From Arthrobacter ramosus (GTDB taxonomy: Bacteria > Actinomycetota > Actinomycetes > Actinomycetales > Micrococcaceae): a stretch of 64,000 nucleotides of DNA. Shown one piece after another: positions 3,441 to 24,514 of this stretch (position 1 is its first letter; every line of letters starts with the position of its first letter). Made by a program: the position numbers and the translations under genes. Below the pieces are notes generated by a model. It was not told the DNA's origin, did no database searches, and worked only from the letters and a program-made list of their open reading frames with translations. Location: NCBI RefSeq assembly GCF_039535095.1, contig NZ_BAAAWN010000001.1, positions 4,402,001 through 4,466,000 on the forward strand, read 5' to 3'.

Positions 3441-4352
3441 ATGGTCAACTTCCTGAAGAAGTGGCAAGCGGAGCTGCGGATGACTTTTACAGGTCACCCG
3501 CAGTCCACGCCTGACTGGGTGCTGCGGCTTGCGGAGGGAAACGACCCCGGATACCACCTTCCCGGCTCGGCCGTCTGGGCTGTCCACGGGTCCATGTCCA
3601 CGATCGTCGCGGGAATCCGGGTGCTGCTCATGCAGTCCCTGCACCCCGGCGCCTTGGCGGGAGTGTACGACCATTCAGGCTTCAAAAGAGATCCCCTCGG
3701 CCGGCTGGCAAATACCATCCGTTGGATATTCACCGTGAGCTACGGCTCCATGGACGCGGCTCACACGGCAACCAATTTCGTGCGACGGGTCCATGACTCC
3801 GTCAAGGGCAGCTACGTTGACGCCCAGGGACAGACCCGCGAGTATTCAGCCAACGATCCCGAGCTTCTACGCTGGGTCCACGTTGCCTACGCGGATTCCT
3901 TCGTGGCGGCGCACCGGATCTGGGGAGGTGCGGTCCCCGGCGGCGCCGACGCCTACATCCGCGAGTGGGCCCAGGCCGGCCGCCTGATGGGAGTCGAGGA
4001 CCCTCCCCTGAGCCTCGCGGAAGTGACGGCGGAAATGGACCGCTGGTACGCCTCCGGACATCTCCGCGCGGACGAGCGGCTCAGGGAAACCATCGATTTC
4101 ATCCGATATCCCCCGCTGAAAGCGTCGCTGCAACCCGGTTACCGGATTTTGTTCGCCGCGGCCGTAGCCAGCCTGGAACCCAGGTATCGGGAACTGTTGG
4201 GGCTGGAAAAGCCCCGTTTTGGCCCCATCCCGCTGCCGTCGATTCTCGCCGCGCGGGTGGTCCTCGCCGTCGTGCGCCTGACCTTGGGCCGTAGCGGCCC
4301 CAGCGAGCAGGCCGCCCGTCAGCGGTTGCGGCGCTTGGGGTACGAGGCATAG
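3441..4352 (+). CDS. Oxygenase MpaB family (DUF2236) protein
   Basis: 303 residues, typical for the DUF2236/MpaB family. This family is related to the rubber oxygenase latex-clearing protein and to the fungal MpaB involved in mycophenolate side-chain cleavage. Visible family features are the N-terminal GSAVWAVHGSMSTIVAGIRVLLMQSLHPGA region and FVRRVHDSVKG followed by HVAYADSF, which include histidines at positions typical of the haem-binding family. The ATG at 3441 is chosen because upstream in-frame codons run into the terminator hairpin of the previous gene; the Shine-Dalgarno is weak. It stands alone, convergent with putA. The substrate is not predictable. Confidence 0.75.
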   Translation: MVNFLKKWQAELRMTFTGHPQSTPDWVLRLAEGNDPGYHLPGSAVWAVHGSMSTIVAGIRVLLMQSLHPGALAGVYDHSGFKRDPLGRLANTIRWIFTVSYGSMDAAHTATNFVRRVHDSVKGSYVDAQGQTREYSANDPELLRWVHVAYADSFVAAHRIWGGAVPGGADAYIREWAQAGRLMGVEDPPLSLAEVTAEMDRWYASGHLRADERLRETIDFIRYPPLKASLQPGYRILFAAAVASLEPRYRELLGLEKPRFGPIPLPSILAARVVLAVVRLTLGRSGPSEQAARQRLRRLGYEA

Positions 4353-4356
4353 ACGC

Positions 4357-4403
4357 AAAGAATCCCGACGGAGCGGCTTGTGGCCGTCCCGCCGGGATTC
4401 TTT
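4357..4403. terminator. Bidirectional terminator between the MpaB-type gene and putA
   Basis: An 11-bp perfect stem (4357-4367, AAAGAATCCCG, with 4393-4403, CGGGATTCTTT). The A/T runs at the two ends allow termination of both converging genes. Confidence 0.75.
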
Positions 4404-4412
4404 GACGAATCG

Positions 4413-7400
4413 CTAGATCAGCGCGTCCGACAGGTGGTTCGGAGTGCCGAAGCGGTGCGCTGTGATGCTGATGGCCTGCTCGTGCAGGAACGGCAGCATC
4501 TCGATGCGTCCGGCCGGGGTCACCGAGCCGTGGTAGATCGCGACGTCGGGACGACCGCCGGTCGCGGCGCTCAGCGCGCTGCTGTCCCCGCCGATCAGGC
4601 GGATGCGGCCACCATTGATGCCTGCCGCGGAAGCCAGCCATTCGGCGTCGTTCTGGATGCGGGTGCTCACGCCCAGCCCCGCGAACGCTGCGATAACAGC
4701 TTCGGGAAGCTCGACGGCGGAGGACACCGTGAGTGCCGAACCCGCCACTGCCCCGGCCGCTACGACGCGAAGCAAGTCCACGAGCTTCTCGCCCTCGGAC
4801 AGACGGATGGTCACGGGGACGGCCCTGTACCGGAAGACGTTGCGCTCGGCGCTCAGGCCGGAGACGTCCTTGCGGGTGCCGAATTCCGTGGCCCATGCCG
4901 CGGCGTCGCTGAAGAGCGCCTTCTGCAGGGCCTCTGCGTCGCTGGCTTCAACAAGCGGGCCTGCGGCCTTGGCGGCGGCCAGGATCGAAGCGGCCCCACC
5001 CTTGAGCGTGGCACCGCGCTTGGCGCCGGGCTCAGCCGGGAGCCAGCTGCCCAGTCCGACCAGGTAGTTGGGTCCGCCGGCCTTGGTGCCCGCGCCCACG
5101 GCGGACTTCTTCCAGCCGCCGAACGGCTGCCGCTGGACGATGGCGCCCGTGATGCCGCGGTTCACGTAGAGGTTGCCGGCCTGGATGGTGTCCAGCCAGA
5201 CGCCCATTTCTTCGGAATCGAGTGAGTGCAGCCCGGCGGTGAGGCCATATTCGATCTCATTTTGGATGGCGATTGCTTCTTCCAAGGTGGACGCCGTCAT
5301 GACGCCGAGGACCGGACCAAAGAACTCGGTCAGGTGGAAGTAGGAGCCGCGCTTGACGCCGAACCGGATGCCCGGGGACCACAGACGGCCGGTCTCGTCC
5401 AGCTTCTCCGGCTTCACGGCCCAGGTCTCGCCGTCGCCGAGGGTGGTCAGCGCGTTGAGGAGCTTGCCGTTGGCCGGCTCAATGATCGGGCCCATTTGGG
5501 TGGTGGCTTGTTCCGGGTAGCCCACCTTGAGCGAGCGGGCGGCATCCACCAACTGGTTGTGGAAGCGCTCGGACGTGGCAACGGAACCTACCAGGATCAC
5601 GAGCGAAGCGGCGGAGCACTTCTGTCCGGCGTGCCCGAAAGCCGAGTACACGACGTCCTTGGCGGCGAGATCGAGGTCCGCGTGCGGGGTGACGATGATG
5701 GCGTTCTTGCCCGAGGTCTCCGCGAGCAGCGGGAGGTCCTGCCGGAAGGAGCGGAAGAGCTCGGCGGTCTCGTAGCCGCCGGTGAGGATCACGCGGTCAA
5801 CGCTGGGGTGCGAGACCAGCTGGGTGCCCAGCTCGCGTTCTTCGAGCTGCACGAGCGCCAGCACTTCGCGCGGCACACCGGCCTCCCACAACGCGTCCAC
5901 CATGACGGAACCGGAGCGGCGGGCCTGCTTTGCCGGTTTGATCACGACGGCGGATCCCGCCGCGAGTGCCGCCAGCGTGGAGCCCGCAGGGATCGCCACC
6001 GGGAAGTTCCACGGCGGGGTCACGACGGTGAGGTTCGCTGGGACGAACGTGGCGCCGTCGACCGTTTCCAGGTCCTTGGCACGCTCGGCGTAGTAGTGCG
6101 CGAAGTCGATTGCTTCGCTGACTTCGGGGTCGCCCTGTTCGATCGTCTTACCGGTCTCGGAGGCCATGACCTCAAGAAGTTCGGCCCGCCGGGATTCCAG
6201 GATGTCGCCTGCGCGGTGCAGGATGGCTGCGCGCTCGGCAGCCGGCATGGCGCCCCAAGCTTTGCCGTGTTCAACGGCGGTGGCAATAATGCGGTCAAGT
6301 TCCTGGGCGTCCCTGACCTTGCTGGCTTCAACGATCGCGTCGCCGGCGGCGGAGCCCGGAATGCGCTCCAGGATGGCGCGGCCCCAGGCCCGGTTGGCGG
6401 GCAGGGCAGGATCGGTGTCCGGGGTGTTGGCGAAACCATCTTTTGGCGCCGAGACTGCGGGCTCGTTGCGGTCCTGCGTGCGGTTGGGGGCCGGAACGGC
6501 GTCGTCCATCTCCGCGAGCGAGGCGAGGAAACGCTGCTTCTCGCGTTCGAACAGGGTTTCATTCTCGCTGAGCTCGAACACGGCGGACATGAAGTTGTCC
6601 TGGCTGGCGCCTTCTTCGAGGCGGCGGATCAGGTAGGCGATGGCGACGTCGAACTCGCCCGGGTGCACCACCGGTGTGTACAACAGGAGGCTGCCGACGT
6701 CCTTGCGGACGGCCGTGGCCTGGCCTGTGGCCATACCGAGGAGCATCTCGAACTCAATGCCCTTCGTCACCCCGCGCTCCTTCGCCAGCAGCCACGCGAA
6801 GGCCACGTCAAAGAGGTTGTGGCCGGCGACGCCGATGCGCACAGCGTCGATGTGCTCAGGGGTCAGGGCGTAGTTCAGGACTCGCTTGTAATTGGTGTCC
6901 GAATCCTGCTTGGTGCCCCATGTGGCGAGCGGCCAGCCCTGGATGGAGGCCTGGACCTGTTCCATGGGCAGGTTGGCGCCCTTGACGACGCGCACCTTGA
7001 TGGGAGCGCCGCCGTTTGCCCGACGTGCCGCAGCCCATTCCTGCAGTTCCTGCATGGCCGAGAGCGCGTCCGGGAGGTAGGCCTGAAGCACGATGCCGGC
7101 CTCGAGGCTCTTGAATTCGGGCTTGTCCAGGATCCGGGTGAACACGGCCATGGTCAGGCTGAGGTCCTTGTATTCCTCCATGTCCAGGTTGATGAACTTT
7201 GGCTTGGAGAACGACGCAGCCAGCTTGTAGAGCGGCGTGAGCTTCTCCACCACGTGGTCCACTGCTTCGTCGAAGGCCCACAGCGAGTGCGGGGCCACCG
7301 TGGAGGACTCCTTGATGGAGACGTAGTCGACGTCGTCGCGAGCCAGGAGCTTGAGGGTTCCCTCGAGCCTGCGGCTGGCTTCGCGTTCGCCCAGGACGGC

Positions 7401-18056: not shown

Positions 18057-18269
18057 TCAGGCGCCTTCCTTGCGGATTCCGTAGTGGTGGCCCTGGTCGT
18101 CTGTTTCGACGACGAAATGCCCCAGGTCTTCTTCCGACGCCGTCTCGAAGTCGTCATGCTTGTGGACTACGGGCGTATCAATGTCGCCCCGGGTTGCCGG
18201 GCCGAACCAGAAACGCAGTCGATCTGTGACCTTCATGAAGCTATCGAGTGCATGTCCCACAATTCCCAC
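18057..18269 (-). CDS. Small protein, paralogue of the next gene (unknown function)
   Basis: 70 residues, hydrophilic with an aromatic-rich amphipathic N-terminus. The stretch SFMKVTDRLRFWFGPATRGD aligns with RFMRATGKLRIIFGPAHSSS of the 74-residue protein encoded 123 bp upstream. Both then carry an acidic middle and end near a YGIRK/TYVVPKN tail. The shared core is F-M-x-x-T-x-(R/K)-L-R-x-x-F-G-P-A. I do not recognise a named family. It may form a unit with its paralogue and the OhrR-like gene. Confidence 0.6.
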   Translation of the reverse strand: MGIVGHALDSFMKVTDRLRFWFGPATRGDIDTPVVHKHDDFETASEEDLGHFVVETDDQGHHYGIRKEGA

Positions 18270-18391
18270 CTCCTTCCCCGCTGCGAGGTCCAGCCGTGCG
18301 GTTGGAGCTGAGTGGTTCCAGTGAGGCCAATTTTACGCCCGGAACCCGTAAAAGGCCCGGGTCGGCGTCGATCGCTGAGAGCTAGGAGCGC

Positions 18392-18616
18392 TTAACGAAG
18401 GGATTTGTCGTCCGGGTTCTTGGGGACCACATAGGTGCTGCCGTCGGCCCTGCGGATCGTCTCCCATTGCTGCGCTTCGGCCTGGCGCCGCACGAGGAGT
18501 CGCTTGTTCTCCTCGGTCATTTCATGATCCAGGGAACTGCTGTGCGCCGGACCGAAAATGATCCGCAGCTTGCCGGTTGCACGCATGAATCTCTGGGTCA
18601 TGGTCTCTTTGGCCAC
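18392..18616 (-). CDS. Small protein, divergent from OhrR-like regulator (unknown function)
   Basis: 74 residues, paralogue of the protein encoded at 18057. It shares the RFMRATGKLRIIFGPA core, followed by a charged helix (EENKRLLVRRQAEAQQWETI) and a short beta-like tail (RRADGSTYVVPKN). No signal peptide or membrane helix. It is divergent from the regulator at 18725, and the 108-bp gap holds a strong palindromic operator, so it is probably controlled by that regulator. Function unknown. Confidence 0.65.
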   Translation of the reverse strand: MAKETMTQRFMRATGKLRIIFGPAHSSSLDHEMTEENKRLLVRRQAEAQQWETIRRADGSTYVVPKNPDDKSLR

Positions 18617-18658
18617 CTGGTCTACCCTCTCTCAAAAGGATGTTGTGGTTAAAGAGTA

Positions 18659-18679
18659 CACTAACAATTAGTGCACTAA
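18659..18679. promoter_or_regulatory. Overlapping palindromic operator for the OhrR/MarR-type regulator
   Basis: CACTAA-CAA-TTAGTG (18659-18673) and TTAGTGCACTAA (18668-18679) are both perfect inverted repeats sharing the middle TTAGTG. They lie between the divergent small gene (start 18616) and the regulator (start 18725). The size and AT-rich symmetry fit a MarR/OhrR site. Confidence 0.65.
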
Positions 18680-18724
18680 CTATCGATCGGCGCAGACCGG
18701 TCGCGACACGGAACGGAGCAAGCC

Positions 18725-19228
18725 ATGGCTGCCGCAAGCACACCCGTTGCCCCCGAAACCACCGCCCCGCTTGAAGACGACCTTTTGCTGGAGCGTCAAT
18801 TGTGCTTCGCCCTGACGGTGGCGTCGCGGAGCGTGGTGGGCGTCTACAAGCCGGTGCTTGAAAAGATGGGACTGACCCATCCGCAGTACCTCGTGATGCT
18901 AGCCCTCTGGGAACGCAGCCCGCGCACGCTCAAGGACATCAGCGAGGCACTCCTGCACGAGCCAGCAACCCTTTCACCCATCCTGCGCCGGCTCGAGGAA
19001 GCAGGATTCGTGACCCGCAACCGCATCCACGGAAACGAACGGGCCCTCGCCATTACCTTGACCGAAGCCGGCGCCGCCCTCAGGCAACAGGCGACCTCCG
19101 TGCCGGGAACCATCATGGAGCGGCTCCAACTCACGCGGGCCGAAGTAGCGGAACTGCACCGGGCCATGACCGGGCTCATCGCGGCCACGCAACACCCGAC
19201 TGCCGGTACGGGCGATAAACTGGCATAA
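18725..19228 (+). CDS. OhrR-like MarR family regulator
   Basis: 167 residues. The N-terminal LERQLCFALTVASR closely follows the OhrR pattern, with a cysteine (C27) at the place of the peroxide-sensing residue. YKPVLEKMGLTHPQYLVMLALWE follows, carrying tyrosines that hold the cysteine in OhrR. The winged helix includes ATLSPILRRLEEAGFVTR. No ohr peroxidase gene is adjacent. Instead it is divergent from a small gene of unknown function and lies 16 bp before an SSI-like lipoprotein gene, so it may control both. Redox sensing is inferred from the cysteine. Confidence 0.82.
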   Translation: MAAASTPVAPETTAPLEDDLLLERQLCFALTVASRSVVGVYKPVLEKMGLTHPQYLVMLALWERSPRTLKDISEALLHEPATLSPILRRLEEAGFVTRNRIHGNERALAITLTEAGAALRQQATSVPGTIMERLQLTRAEVAELHRAMTGLIAATQHPTAGTGDKLA

Positions 19229-19244
19229 ATCAAGGAGAACCCCC

Positions 19245-19814
19245 ATGCGCCTGCGAATAGTCCGGTCTGTGCTGGCCGTCGTCGCCGTCGCTGGTCTTGC
19301 CGCCTGCACGCCCGGCCCCGGGGGCGGTTCGCCCAGCAGTTCGGCGCCTGGCAACAGCACGTCGTCCTCGCCGTCGAGCAGCCCCACCGGGCTTTTGCCT
19401 GACGAAACGTCGTCTCCCAGCGGCAAACCGGCTCCTTCGGTCTCCCCCACCGCGCCCAGCTCCCCCGGCCGCGGAGATGCCGAGCTTTCCATCATCCTCA
19501 AGCTGTCCCCCACGGCAGCCGCTGAAAGCTACACGCTCGTCTGCACCGGCGGCGTCCCCGCCGCGGAGAGCCACCACCCCACCGCAGCCGCAGCGTGCGC
19601 AGCCCTGAAAAAGAACCCGGGCCTGCTCACGCGCACGCCCCGCCCCAGCGACCAGATGTGCGACCAGCGTTACGGCGGACCCCAGACGGCAATAGTCACC
19701 GGGGCCATTGATGGCGTGGGCGTCGAGTCCTCCTACAAACTCACTGACGGCTGCGAAATCTCAGCATGGGCCGCCGTCGCCGACATCCTTGGTTCGAGCG
19801 GTGCCGGAGCTTAA
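19245..19814 (+). CDS. Lipoprotein with Streptomyces subtilisin inhibitor (SSI)-like domain
   Basis: 189 residues. The signal peptide ends in a lipobox GLAAC (C21), then a Ser/Pro-rich linker to about residue 77. The C-terminal 110 residues match the SSI fold: four cysteines at C100, C118, C139, C170, the (M)C-x-x-x-Y segment that carries the reactive loop in SSI, VTGAIDGVGVESSY, and DGCE. The residue aligned with the inhibitor P1 site is Gln (C-D-Q-R-Y), not the Met, Lys or Arg usual in Streptomyces. Anchored outside the membrane, it may restrain serine proteases; a subtilase is encoded 1.5 kb away. 16 bp follow the regulator stop; an ATG-proximal AAGGAG is present. Confidence 0.78.
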   Translation: MRLRIVRSVLAVVAVAGLAACTPGPGGGSPSSSAPGNSTSSSPSSSPTGLLPDETSSPSGKPAPSVSPTAPSSPGRGDAELSIILKLSPTAAAESYTLVCTGGVPAAESHHPTAAAACAALKKNPGLLTRTPRPSDQMCDQRYGGPQTAIVTGAIDGVGVESSYKLTDGCEISAWAAVADILGSSGAGA

Positions 19815-20754
19815 GTACAGACACCTCCCTCAAGAGAAATGGCTCGCGCTGGAGGCTGCCCACCACGAACGCGTTGAGCGCTATGCGAAGCCGTACTTGG
19901 CCCGGCGCTCCGCAGGCCAGAAGCATCCCGTGGAAGATTTCCTCTTCACCTACTACACCCAGAAGCCCGGCCAGCTGCTGCGCTGGCACCCGGGCGACGG
20001 CGTCGTCCTCTCCGGCCCCAAGGCTGCCGAGCGGGCCGGGTGGAAGTACTACCAAGTGCTCGACGACGGCGCGCTGGCGGCCGCGGGCCTGCCCGCCGGT
20101 ACCGTCGCGGTCACCTTCGATCGCCGCAAGTTCGCGGCCGACCGCACCGAGGCCGTCCGTTTCGCCGGCATCATCCTCAGGGGAACCGTTGCGCGGCCCG
20201 CCCAGTTTGGTTGCTTCGGACTGCACGAGTGGGCCATGGTCTACCGGCAGGACAAATTCGATCTTCGCCACGAGTACCTCAAGCTGCGGCTCGGCTCCGA
20301 AGGCACAGACACCGTGGTGGAAGACAACCGGATCCGCTGCTCGCATTTCGACGCCTTCCGCTTCTACACTCCGGACGCTATCCCGCTCAACGAACTCGCC
20401 CCCACGCGGGACAACCAACGCACCATGGAGCAACCCGGCTGCCTGCACGCCAACATGGACCTGTACAAATGGGCGTACAAGCTGACGCCGTCCCTGCCGA
20501 GCGAACTGGTCATGGACTGCTTCGAACTGTCCTGGCGGATCCGGGCCATGGACATGCAGGCCTCGCCCTACGACCTTGAAGAGTGGGGATACCCCGCCAT
20601 CAGGATCGAGACACCCCAAGGCAAGGCGGAGTACGTTGAGTATCAGAGGGCATTCGCTGCCGAGGCCCAAGCGCTCCGCGCGCGGGTCCTCGACGAAATG
20701 CAACCGCTCCTTGAACTCCTGGTACAAGCACCGTCTCACGAAGGACAGCGATGA
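19801..20754 (+). CDS. Protein of the actinobacterial family named 3-methyladenine DNA glycosylase (function uncertain)
   Basis: 317 residues from the GTG at 19801, which overlaps the lipoprotein gene by 14 bp; the Shine-Dalgarno is weak. The conserved text (WLALEAAHHERVERYAKPYL, FLFTYYTQKPGQLLRWHPG, FGCFGLHEWAMVYRQ, MDLYKWAYKLTP) matches a family that databases commonly call 3-methyladenine DNA glycosylase. I see no helix-hairpin-helix glycosylase motif, so the name may be inherited rather than shown. Cytoplasmic. Its stop overlaps the next start by 4 bp, which suggests translation coupling with the SSI-like protein. Confidence 0.65.
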   Translation: MPELKYRHLPQEKWLALEAAHHERVERYAKPYLARRSAGQKHPVEDFLFTYYTQKPGQLLRWHPGDGVVLSGPKAAERAGWKYYQVLDDGALAAAGLPAGTVAVTFDRRKFAADRTEAVRFAGIILRGTVARPAQFGCFGLHEWAMVYRQDKFDLRHEYLKLRLGSEGTDTVVEDNRIRCSHFDAFRFYTPDAIPLNELAPTRDNQRTMEQPGCLHANMDLYKWAYKLTPSLPSELVMDCFELSWRIRAMDMQASPYDLEEWGYPAIRIETPQGKAEYVEYQRAFAAEAQALRARVLDEMQPLLELLVQAPSHEGQR

Positions 20755-21122
20755 CTTCAAGCAATGGAAAGTACGACGTCGAACTCACCATCACGCTGAC
20801 AGAGGCACCAGGCGCCGTGGACTATGAGTTCGTCCTGCTCGGCTCGGGCGGCGCAGTCTCCGAAGGCTCGACCCTTCCGGACCCCCGCGCGGCGCTTGCC
20901 GCCGTCGAGCAATTCGGCGAAGAGATCTTCTTTCCGGTTCCGCGGCCGGACCGGATTTGCACCCAGCAGTACGGCGGTCCACAAGTGGCGTTGGTGACGG
21001 GCCGGTTCCGCGGTCGCGAGGTCAGCAGCCGCTTCAGCCGGACGGACGGCTGCGAGATCGCCCGTTGGCGTACGATGGCCGCACTCCTTGGCGGCGTGGC
21101 AGGATCCACAGGAAACATCTAA
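20751..21122 (+). CDS. SSI-like domain protein without signal peptide
   Basis: 123 residues, ATGA overlap with the preceding gene. It is a clear paralogue of the SSI-like lipoprotein two genes upstream. RICTQQYGGPQVALVTGRFRG then FSRTDGCEIARW aligns with MCDQRYGGPQTAIVTGAIDG and KLTDGCEISAW. C70 and C101 keep the second disulfide spacing (31 residues in both). The first cysteine pair is lost, and no signal peptide or lipobox exists, so it should stay in the cytoplasm. The residue at the P1 position is again Gln. A role against a cytoplasmic protease, or a non-inhibitory role, are both possible. Confidence 0.7.
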   Translation: MTSSNGKYDVELTITLTEAPGAVDYEFVLLGSGGAVSEGSTLPDPRAALAAVEQFGEEIFFPVPRPDRICTQQYGGPQVALVTGRFRGREVSSRFSRTDGCEIARWRTMAALLGGVAGSTGNI

Positions 21123-21124
21123 CG

Positions 21125-21255
21125 ACGCTCGCTCACATATGACGGTCCCCAACCCAACGCTCGCTCACATATGACGGTCCCCAACCCAACGCTCGCTCAC
21201 ATCAGCTGCAAGAGGGTGCCACCGTTTGGGCTCATATCTGAGCGGGCGTCCGGGG
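21125..21255. repeat. Intergenic 32-bp tandem units with inverted end unit
   Basis: Units start ACGCTCGCTCACATATGA at 21125 and 21157, and a truncated unit at 21189, giving an exact 32-bp period. After a 30-bp centre the inverted form appears once at about 21231-21250 (TCATATCTGAGCGGGCGTCC). The same family occurs at 30539-30755. Confidence 0.8.
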
Positions 21256-21258
21256 GTA

Positions 21259-21302
21259 GCAAGAAAGCGGCCGGCGGGATATCCCGCCGGCCGCTTTCTT
21301 GC
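21259..21302. terminator. Perfect 44-bp palindromic bidirectional terminator
   Basis: A 22-bp perfect inverted repeat running GCAAGAAAGCGGCCGGCGGG to its complement, with A/T at both ends. It separates the convergent SSI-like and subtilase genes. Confidence 0.82.
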
Positions 21303-21328
21303 ATTTCTGTCAGACCATCACCGCCGCA

Positions 21329-24300
21329 CTAAAGCGCGTTGTTTGACTGGTCCTCCCCTTCATTCTGAAGTTTGCCCTTGCCGTGCTGGCCTTCTTGGTC
21401 ATCCTTCGGCACGACGGACACGCTGCCGTTTGCCGAGACCAGAACGGACACAAACGTCGGCGAACTTGTGCCGGCAAACGTGAGTCGGCCGATGTAGGAA
21501 CCCGGCGTCAGGCTGTTCCACGCGAAGGTGAGCTTCCCGGATTTGCCGTTCTTCATGTTGATCGGGTTGGGCGTGACCGTGGCGTTGCCTTGGTTTGCGC
21601 CCAGGATCGCGGCATCAACGCTGGCCTTGGTGGGCCGGTTGTTGGGGCTGGCATACAGGTTCGCGATGATGGTGTACGTCCCAGGCTCCGGGTTGTCGAG
21701 GGAGAGCGACTCACTGGCACTGGGTGTCGCTGCCGTGAACAACTGACCCGACGGCGACAGAACATACAGATCGAAATCCGCCGTGGGATCGGAGGAAATC
21801 ACCGAGAACTTCGCGAACGCGGTTCCGGGGGCAACTGTGGCGGTCTTGACGAAGTTCGAGGCATTGTTCGCCACAGCCACAGGACCGGGAACAAGCTCCG
21901 CGGCCGAGGAATCAGCCTTGGAGAGACCGTCAATGGTCACGGCCGTGGGTGAGTCGGAACCGGAGACGATATTGATGTCCGCCGATCCGCTTGCCTGCTG
22001 GGACGTGAAGGCGACGCTCTTGGATGCCAGTACCGACTGCGGACGGACCGCAATCGGAGAGACCACCGACTTGTTGGCGCCTTCCCACTTCAGAGATCCC
22101 ATCGCGAAAGTACCCAGTGCCGCGCTCTTGTTTTCGAAGGTCACCGTGAAGGTCTTCTTCTGGCCGACTTCGCTGAAATTCAGCACGGACGGGGTGACCT
22201 TGACGTCAACCCCAGGGACATTGACTGTGGCCCGGTACTGTCCCGGGGTCAGCGCGGTGACGGTGCGAGTGACCTCCATCTTGCCTGCGAGGTTACCCAG
22301 GGCGAACGACGGAAGGTTCATGTCGCGCGGCAGTGTCGAGCCAAGTCCCGGCTTGCCGAGATCGACGCCGGTGCCCTGGATGAACTTCAGGTAGTCATCG
22401 GTTCCGGCATCGTAGACCAGGCCCGGTTCCAGCACGCCGGCAGGGTTCATCTCGCCCGCACCGGTGGCGAAGACGTCCTGGTTCTTGCTTCCATCGGCCA
22501 GCTTGACGTCACTCGCCGTCGTCATCATGGCCGACTTGACCGCCGCCGGTGACCAATCGGGATTCTTCGCCATGATCAGGGCTCCAAAACCTGCAATGTG
22601 CGGGGACGCCATGGAGGTACCGGACATGAATCCGTACTCATCGCCTTTGCTGCCGATGGGCGAAACCCCCGCCAGCACGGCAACGCCGGGAGCCGAAACG
22701 TCCGGCTTGAGCAGATCCGAATCGGTGGCGAGGAGCGGGCCGCGGGACGAGAATCCGGCGATCTGCGGCTGAGCCTCGAGCGGAAGCCCGGTGGTGTCGT
22801 GGTCAACGAGAGAAACAGTAAGTCCCGGGTTGGCCGCAACCTTGTCCTTGATGGCCTGCGACGCCGGGGGGTTCACGTGGACGGTGGGCACTGCGTGCTT
22901 GTCCGTGTCCAATGAGGAGCTGGTGAGGTTCACGAGGATCATGCCCACGCCGCCACCGCGGAGCACCTCGGCGCTCTTGGCGACGCGGTCAACCACCCCA
23001 CGGTCACACACCACTACCTTGCCGGCGATTTTCGCCGCGTCCAGGGACCCAGGCGCACAGAGTGCTGCGTTACCGGCACCTGAGGCGGCGTTTGCGGAGA
23101 GCACGACGCCGGCCCCGCTCACCTGGTGGTTCATGATGCTCGCTCCGCGGAACTTGGTGCCGTCGGAGAATTCGACGGTGCCCTGGAGCTCCTGGGAGAA
23201 GGAAGTAGCCGCAACCGTGGTCATCCAGGGTGCGCCGTGGTTGACGGTGCTGGCCTGCGGGCCGGAGTTACCGGCGGACGCTGCCACAAAGATGCCGGCA
23301 GACGCGGCAGAGAGGAACGCCAGCGAGACCGGGTCCGTGGTGGTGTCCGTAGCGCCGGAAATGGAGTAATTCAGGACGTCCACGCCGTCGGCAATGGCCT
23401 GGTCAATGGCGGCTATGGCCGCGGAACTGTAGCAGCCGCCCGAATTGGGGTTGGTGTCTTCCCAGCAGATCTTGTAAATGGAGAGCTTGGCAGCTGGTGC
23501 CACCCCGCTCGTCTTTCCGAAGCTGCGGCCATCCACGAACGTCTCCACACCGGAGTTGCCCGCTGCGGTGCTGGCCGTGTGCGTACCGTGGCTCGCGACG
23601 TCGATGGGCGAGAGCTGTTCCTGGGGTGCCCGTTGGGCTGGAGGAACCGACTGGAGGAAGGCATCTGCGAAGTAGTGGGCAGCGAGGACTTTGGAATTGC
23701 AGGCAGTGCCGTCAAAGGCCGCCCCGGTGTCGGTACCTTTCTGGCATTCGCCTACGAAGGTATCTCCGTTGGCCTTCAGCATGGCGATCTTGCCGTCATT
23801 CGTGCGGTACGGGACGCCCACCTGGGGGTCCCCGACCAGCGGCTGGACGGCATCGCCGGCGAAGAACTTGCTTGTGGGCGTGTAGCCGGTGTCGATGACG
23901 CCCACCACAGTGCCCTTGCCGGCCTGGTCCTGGCCTCCGAACTGGGTATTCCACACGCCGTTCGGTCCGCTGAGGTTGAGGAAATCGGTGGTGGAGTAGT
24001 CAGGAGCGGACTGCGTGTCCGGGGCCACGAGGAGAACATCGGGGTTCTTCGCGAGATTGACGGCCTGGTTCGCGGAAAGGGTGGCGCTGAAGCCGTTGAT
24101 GGCTGTTGTGTAGTCGCGATTGATGCTCACGCTCTGCTGCTTGGCCACGTCCTGCTGCTTCTGCAGCAAGTGGGCCTCGTACTGCTTCACTTCGGCCCTG
24201 CCGACGTCAAGCTTCTTGCCTGCCTGCGGCTTGGTGGGCACATAGCCGGGCGTTCCGCCGTCGTAAGTGGCCGCTGGCTTCTCTGCCAGCACCACTACGT

Positions 24301-24514
24301 AGCGGCCATCCTGGTAAGACTTGGGGTCGACATTCCGGGCAACCCCCGCAACCGTTGATCCGAAGACCGTTGAGCCGGAAGCGGGCGCAGCTTGAGCGGG
24401 TGTCAAAGCCACCGAGGAGAGCAGAACCGGCAGTCCGACGGCCAACGCCGCAGCTTTTCGAAGCCCCCCGCTTCCAATGAAGCTCTTTCCTTGTGAATTC
24501 ACGAGTGATTGCAC
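21329..24514 (-). CDS. Secreted S8 family subtilisin-like serine protease
   Basis: 1061 residues. The signal peptide ends about residue 42 (TPAQAA). An I9 propeptide spans about 70-165 (YVVVLAEKP to NPDVLLVAPD). The S8 catalytic domain has D208 (VIDTGY), H309 (SHGTH), oxyanion N416 (AGNSGP) and S634 (GTSMASP). A PA domain is inserted at about 450-570 (VVCDRGVVDRVAKS). C-terminal Fn3-like and PPC-like beta domains follow to about 1040, ending in a charged tail (DDQEGQHGKGKLQNEGEDQ). This is the layout of large nutritional or processing subtilases. It is convergent with the SSI-like cluster, an inhibitor/target relationship to consider. Confidence 0.93.
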   Translation of the reverse strand: MQSLVNSQGKSFIGSGGLRKAAALAVGLPVLLSSVALTPAQAAPASGSTVFGSTVAGVARNVDPKSYQDGRYVVVLAEKPAATYDGGTPGYVPTKPQAGKKLDVGRAEVKQYEAHLLQKQQDVAKQQSVSINRDYTTAINGFSATLSANQAVNLAKNPDVLLVAPDTQSAPDYSTTDFLNLSGPNGVWNTQFGGQDQAGKGTVVGVIDTGYTPTSKFFAGDAVQPLVGDPQVGVPYRTNDGKIAMLKANGDTFVGECQKGTDTGAAFDGTACNSKVLAAHYFADAFLQSVPPAQRAPQEQLSPIDVASHGTHTASTAAGNSGVETFVDGRSFGKTSGVAPAAKLSIYKICWEDTNPNSGGCYSSAAIAAIDQAIADGVDVLNYSISGATDTTTDPVSLAFLSAASAGIFVAASAGNSGPQASTVNHGAPWMTTVAATSFSQELQGTVEFSDGTKFRGASIMNHQVSGAGVVLSANAASGAGNAALCAPGSLDAAKIAGKVVVCDRGVVDRVAKSAEVLRGGGVGMILVNLTSSSLDTDKHAVPTVHVNPPASQAIKDKVAANPGLTVSLVDHDTTGLPLEAQPQIAGFSSRGPLLATDSDLLKPDVSAPGVAVLAGVSPIGSKGDEYGFMSGTSMASPHIAGFGALIMAKNPDWSPAAVKSAMMTTASDVKLADGSKNQDVFATGAGEMNPAGVLEPGLVYDAGTDDYLKFIQGTGVDLGKPGLGSTLPRDMNLPSFALGNLAGKMEVTRTVTALTPGQYRATVNVPGVDVKVTPSVLNFSEVGQKKTFTVTFENKSAALGTFAMGSLKWEGANKSVVSPIAVRPQSVLASKSVAFTSQQASGSADINIVSGSDSPTAVTIDGLSKADSSAAELVPGPVAVANNASNFVKTATVAPGTAFAKFSVISSDPTADFDLYVLSPSGQLFTAATPSASESLSLDNPEPGTYTIIANLYASPNNRPTKASVDAAILGANQGNATVTPNPINMKNGKSGKLTFAWNSLTPGSYIGRLTFAGTSSPTFVSVLVSANGSVSVVPKDDQEGQHGKGKLQNEGEDQSNNAL

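Follow-up and report, generated by a model that had tools for sequence, protein, structure and literature searches.

Inhibitors of the Streptomyces subtilisin inhibitor (SSI) family are known to be secreted. A small inhibitor that is reported to be present inside the cell and to inhibit subtilisin is the intracellular proteinase inhibitor (IPI) of Bacillus subtilis (PMC3901451). That article describes intracellular peptidase inhibitors as rare, and voices doubts that IPI is confined to the cell interior and that it truly is an inhibitor. Here we describe a locus in a 64,000-nucleotide stretch of Arthrobacter ramosus DNA (the window; contig NZ_BAAAWN010000001.1, positions 4,402,001 to 4,466,000, from a genome that is a single contig of 5.25 Mb), which encodes two related proteins, namely the lipoprotein SSI1 and the signal-less SSI2. 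What is new is a signal-less SSI-fold twin that is kept across the genus with a nearly frozen reactive-site loop. A literature search, judged from titles and abstract openings, turned up no account of an SSI protein inside the cell; the initial annotation of this DNA, likewise, knew of no description of a two-compartment inhibitor system.

SSI1 and SSI2, an exported and a signal-less copy

SSI1 (19245-19814, plus strand) is a lipoprotein with an SSI domain, which scores 31.2 bits against Pfam SSI (PF00720; cut-off 23.9 bits) and matches the PDB entry of SSI, 3sic, with an E-value of 1.4e-4. It contains the lipobox cysteine C21 and the pairs C100/C118 and C139/C170, and thus, by eye, carries the export signal and the two cysteine pairs of the SSI family, with both bonds predicted.

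SSI2 (20751-21122, plus strand) is less easily recognized from its own sequence. The window SSI2 alone matched no Pfam family at E<=10, and only chance matches were obtained for it in the PDB sequence search. Pfam SSI is weakly matched by 18 of the 28 aligned SSI2 sequences (best E 0.0013), a profile of SSI2 gives a weak match to SSI in the PDB (E 0.23), and SSI2 shares 42% identity with SSI1 over 113 columns. The clear matches of its AlphaFold (AF2) model, which has a mean predicted local distance difference test score (pLDDT) of 85, are SSI-family inhibitors only. The initial annotation's view that both copies have the SSI fold is therefore upheld, for SSI1 by Pfam and for SSI2, as modelled, by the predicted structure together with the identity to SSI1.

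Neither a hydrophobic segment nor an export signal is present in SSI2. At all 34 named loci a lone start codon lies between 60 nucleotides (nt) before the stop of the preceding gene, GLY, and the start of the SSI2 domain; therefore, there is no room for a signal peptide. Its cysteines, C70/C101, correspond to the second pair only. Both the cysteine positions and the missing first pair are as described initially, and the lipobox C21 of SSI1 and the lone start codon of SSI2 agree with one copy being anchored outside while the other is without export signal.

With a threshold of E<=1e-35, 148 of the 150 genus genomes, our own among them, have an SSI2. The two exceptions are incomplete genomes, one of them (G027, 68% complete) having only a weaker match, possibly to SSI1, and the other (G118, 63% complete) having no match. 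Arthrobacter sp. efr-133-TYG-118 has an SSI2 that is 99% identical to the window's. The gene order REG-SSI1-GLY-SSI2 is the same in 34/34 named loci, where the distance from the GLY stop to the SSI2 start ranges from an overlap to a gap of 61 nt. Because this order is conserved, chance can be excluded for the cluster, and the close linkage expected by the initial annotation is seen in the relatives. Median ratios of nonsynonymous to synonymous substitution rates (dN/dS) are 0.10 for GLY, 0.15 for REG, 0.20 for SSI2 and 0.28 for SSI1 (536, 375, 517 and 479 usable pairs, respectively, of 561; the broken SSI2 of locus L050 was left out, as was any pair whose dS fell outside the range 0 to 1.5). 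SSI2 is thus under purifying selection in the Arthrobacter group. It is most improbable that SSI2 is a functionless duplicate about to be lost; a few copies are indeed broken or interrupted by stops (for example L050, copies in G022, G100 and G135, and L167 of G648), but they have to be set against this ratio and the presence of SSI2 in nearly the whole genus.

Constraint is also seen in the reactive-site loop, for which the P1 numbering was taken from an alignment to SSI and the numbering used for SSI. Among 59 distinct SSI2 domains of the genus loci that were read, positions P3 to P6' read C-T-Q-Q-Y-G-G-P-Q (CTQQYGGPQ) with one exception, which has V at P1'. Gln occupies the aligned P1 in the two copies of the window, as noted initially; beyond the window, however, this residue is fixed only in SSI2, since the P1 residue in 60 distinct SSI1 domains is Q in 29, M in 27, D in 2, E in 1 and L in 1. 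The frozen loop of SSI2 suggests one conserved partner, although it does not show that this partner is a protease. Given the retention of a signal-less SSI2 across a large genus and its nearly frozen loop, it is probable that SSI2 is selected for by some component of the cell interior. The most likely explanation is that SSI2 is a duplicated and internalised SSI protein which uses the former inhibitor loop to bind one conserved partner in the cell, and which peroxide may arm. For such binding under peroxide-type control we estimate a probability of a little under two in five.

Export and cysteine pairs outside the genus

SSI matches are present in 108 of the 197 family genomes searched, of which 12 belong to the genus. 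Stretches of 7 to 10 kb from the remaining 96 were read by script. Signal-less copies were found in seven of them, distributed over the genera g179 (1), g180 (4) and g186 (2), and each of the seven lies beside an exported copy. The lipobox rule of the script overlooked three four-cysteine rows; rows of g91, g97 and g170 have a hydrophobic N-terminus by reading, L247 being without a lipobox cysteine, and one g97 row (L259 of G635) is a fragment without N-terminus. Rows were dropped when the SSI match scored less than 30 bits or spanned fewer than about 80 positions of the model.

Two genera show that export and cysteines do not go together. In seven of the eight g183 genomes an SSI lipoprotein without the first cysteine pair is present beside SUB, a subtilase gene, while the eighth (G697) has a four-cysteine lipoprotein and no SUB match. 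The lone g183 lipoproteins without the first pair are L173, L179, L207, L215, L223, L227 and L231, and g183 lipoprotein loops vary (CTQQYGG, CMDVFDG, CSDVYSG). The signal-less g180 copy, on the other hand, has lost both cysteine pairs and the CTQQYGG loop, yet pairwise dN/dS values among these copies (including L163, L165 and L166) are about 0.1 to 0.4, so the fold appears to be kept there without an inhibitor loop; one of the four, L167, is broken near its end. These patterns indicate that the loss of export and the loss of cysteine pairs were separate events in different lineages. Loss of the first pair was therefore rejected as a marker of the cytosol, and its initial attribution to a reducing compartment does not hold in the face of the exported g183 lipoproteins.

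The two-cysteine g183 lipoproteins would suit an SSI2 that is released by non-classical export or on lysis and then works extracellularly, as other SSI proteins do. The retention of C70 in 59/59 distinct genus domains and of C101 in 28/28 aligned sequences is likewise what is expected of an extracellular protein. We consider this improbable in view of the missing signal, the lone start codon and the cysteine-free g180 copy.

Outside the family, the best-scoring SSI loci were inspected in 17 of the 30 matching genomes of the order and in 26 of the 90 matching genomes beyond the family (G178 is common to both sets). All of these loci encode four cysteines, and all have a lipobox or hydrophobic export segment except L125 and L279, where the stretch is too short. 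A tree was built from 170 rows dereplicated to 86, with few columns; it left out L167 because of its broken C-terminus, as well as loci that were retrieved at a later stage or had not been selected from the tree. Two g183 lipoproteins group in it with the SSI2 copies of the genus and of g186 (support 95/88). When the first two cysteine columns are removed and six g183 rows are used, the best tree exceeds this grouping by 7.15 log units, and the grouping has a p-value of 0.356 in the approximately unbiased test (p-AU). A single origin of the signal loss (p-AU 0.075) and a single origin of the first-pair loss (p-AU 0.128) are both not rejected, and we therefore make no claim about the number of losses.

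Neighbouring genes and a possible mechanism

The genes REG, SSI1, GLY and SSI2 are co-directional across 18725-21122, with overlaps of 14 nt between SSI1 and GLY and 4 nt between GLY and SSI2. The initial description of four genes with little or no gap, facing a subtilase, agrees with these coordinates. The subtilase, SUB (21329-24514, minus strand), is convergent and stands outside the operon. It matches Pfam S8 with 142.6 bits and is an exported enzyme with an I9 propeptide, PA and fn3. Own-genome S8 subtilases number three, all with export-type N-termini by eye. SUB was matched at E<=1e-50 in 9 of the 20 genomes queried, and no match was obtained at this threshold in G617, G671 and G586, which contain signal-less copies. 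Therefore, SUB is not needed for the retention of SSI2 and was rejected as a necessary partner. The two-compartment inhibitor system of the initial annotation stands as anatomy, while its subtilase part is weakened.

There is little probability, accordingly to the same three genomes, that SSI2 shields the cytosol from the neighbouring SUB before the latter is exported, and SUB moreover has an I9 propeptide of its own. What speaks for such a shield is the position of SUB, convergent in 30 of the 34 named loci (L036, L037 and L040, among the remaining four, are cut by a contig end), the SUB-like gene in 40 of the 96 family stretches, and the joint presence of SUB and the SSI without first pair in seven g183 genomes, with both missing in the eighth.

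GLY (19801-20754, plus strand, GTG start inferred) carries the name "3-methyladenine DNA glycosylase" in public records. The window protein matched 0 families in Pfam and NCBIfam, no glycosylase family is among those matched by 33 GLY members, and nothing better than E 0.013 was found among PDB sequences. Its AF2 model is confident (pLDDT 92.4; predicted template modelling score 0.91), and PDB fold searches with it gave no clear match, which implies neither a new nor a different fold. The residues invariant in 33 aligned sequences include C138, H142, E143, H157, C180, H182, D184, C214, H216 and D220, with the motifs C-x3-H, C-x-H and C-x-H. Such residues point to an enzyme that may depend on a metal, and GLY may be an uncharacterised metalloenzyme. 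The link to a DNA-repair-like protein drawn initially is weakened, as the name has no profile or fold support. GLY was matched in 95 of 197 genomes of the class and in all 14 family genomes queried, those with signal-less copies included; it is an actinobacterial protein of wide distribution and strong conservation. With flanks of 1.5 kb, no SSI was found in 28 GLY loci outside the family (L068-L095, from 28 of the 93 GLY-matching genomes outside the genus), and no GLY in the 26 class-level SSI loci.

Within the family the two genes are often neighbours, GLY being present in the SSI stretch of 85 of the 96 matching genomes outside the genus, and its gene overlaps SSI2 in some species. Nearly as probable as the explanation favoured here is that SSI2 re-uses the SSI fold without inhibitor function, serving in the cytosol to bind or scaffold other proteins such as GLY. 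A loop that is nearly frozen rather than variable, the purifying selection on the cysteine-free g180 copy and the lack of a cytosolic S8 target among the enzymes found all fit such a role. However, outside the genus, g179 and g180, the SSI near GLY is exported as judged by rule or reading, one fragment aside, and cytosolic GLY could therefore not meet it there. Two g186 genomes have the signal-less copy next to a lipoprotein copy but GLY on another contig, and the residues retained are those of the inhibitor loop and its cysteine pair.

REG (18725-19228, plus strand) is an OhrR/MarR-family regulator (Pfam MarR, 50.5 bits; PDB OhrR 1z91, E 6e-30). A cysteine is present at the sensing position, Cys27 in the window, in 34/34 aligned sequences, the window's included, and its role is presumably peroxide sensing. 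The chain 1z91 itself has Ser at the aligned position, which we take to be a Cys-to-Ser variant. REG scores below the cut-off of the NCBIfam OhrR equivalog NF052638 (121.8 versus 200 bits). No OsmC-family gene was matched beside REG; one adjoins an OhrR-like gene elsewhere in the genome (C1:3595852-3596728), whose product is 47% identical to REG, and REG is therefore a second OhrR-type regulator. The initial naming as OhrR-like is thus borne out by the type of protein and its invariant sensing-position cysteine.

Upstream of REG lies an operator-like site, GTACACTAACAATTAGTGCACTAACTA (18656-18682), to which REG may bind. It contains the perfect 12-base palindrome TTAGTGCACTAA (18668-18679), present upstream of REG with at most 2 mismatches in 35/35 loci (L001 of the window and the 34 named ones) and exactly in 26 of them; exact copies are also present in loci of other genera. 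The palindrome occurs once in our genome with up to 1 mismatch allowed, while its reversed control has 6 matches, so that the search demonstrates uniqueness and not an excess. A promoter scan of 18500-21400 found none. A terminator-like stem-loop of 20 pairs is located between SSI2 and SUB (21259-21302); one stem-loop in 18500-21400 is not a significant count in itself, because shuffles give a mean of 2.4. The same intergenic region has a perfect tandem repeat (21125-21202; 32-base unit, 2.4 copies). Two short minus-strand open reading frames precede the operon (18057-18269, 70 residues, and 18392-18616, 74 residues) and share a similar stretch (RFWFGPA and RIIFGPA); they are not counted as operon members.

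In the mechanism that we favour, SSI2 would have arisen by duplication of an exported SSI protein followed by loss of the signal peptide. In the cytosol, the retained loop would let it bind a single conserved partner, which is most likely a protease. Peroxide-type stress would cause the OhrR-type regulator to release the operon and could also close C70-C101, which would stiffen the loop. SSI2 would then guard against proteolysis inside the cell, and SSI1 would do the same at the surface. SSI2 may also share the inhibition of serine or metallo proteases that marks the SSI family. A stricter version is rather unlikely in our view, in which the operon responds to peroxide, SSI1 acts at the surface and the C70-C101 bond of cytosolic SSI2 closes only on oxidation, turning the invariant loop into a tight inhibitor of one intracellular protease. 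If true, SSI2 would inhibit a protease inside the cell under redox gating and would be, to our knowledge, the first SSI-fold protein that works inside the cell.

Several observations weigh against the proposed partner binding. The fold match of SSI2 is moderate, with a template modelling score of about 0.5 and one Foldseek match at E<=0.001, and the five models compared have pLDDT values of 66 to 85. Since all three S8 enzymes look exported, no cytosolic subtilase target has been found, and we know of no subtilisin inhibitor with Gln-Gln at P1-P1'. Disulfides in the cytosol are normally reduced, and a redox control of SSI2 is further weakened by the g180 copy, which has lost the remaining cysteine pair and is nevertheless conserved. 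The cluster is also not compact everywhere, as REG and SSI1 are 1.2 to 2.3 kb apart in L047 and L049, and in L035 (Arthrobacter sp. MA-N2) the GLY match (3596-5998) is split by about 1.4 kb in an insertion-like manner.

Comparison with known inhibitors and regulators

REG resembles OhrR regulators in its sequence, the position of its cysteine and the upstream palindrome, and differs from them in having no adjoining OsmC-family gene. With IPI (BsuPI, PF12690), which is reported to be a small intracellular subtilisin inhibitor, SSI2 shares the general idea. However, IPI has an immunoglobulin-like fold, and its target Isp1 is an intracellular subtilisin, whereas none of the three S8 enzymes found here is without an export-type N-terminus.

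The closest relatives are the members of the SSI family (Streptomyces subtilisin inhibitor, sermetstatin and SSTI), with which SSI1 and SSI2 share the fold, the second cysteine pair and the loop region after the P3 cysteine; SSI1 also passes the family cut-off. Both copies differ from the family by one extra residue after the P2' Tyr (GGP instead of DP). SSI2 is further set apart by the absence of an export signal and of the first cysteine pair, and by an almost invariant Gln-Gln at P1-P1'.

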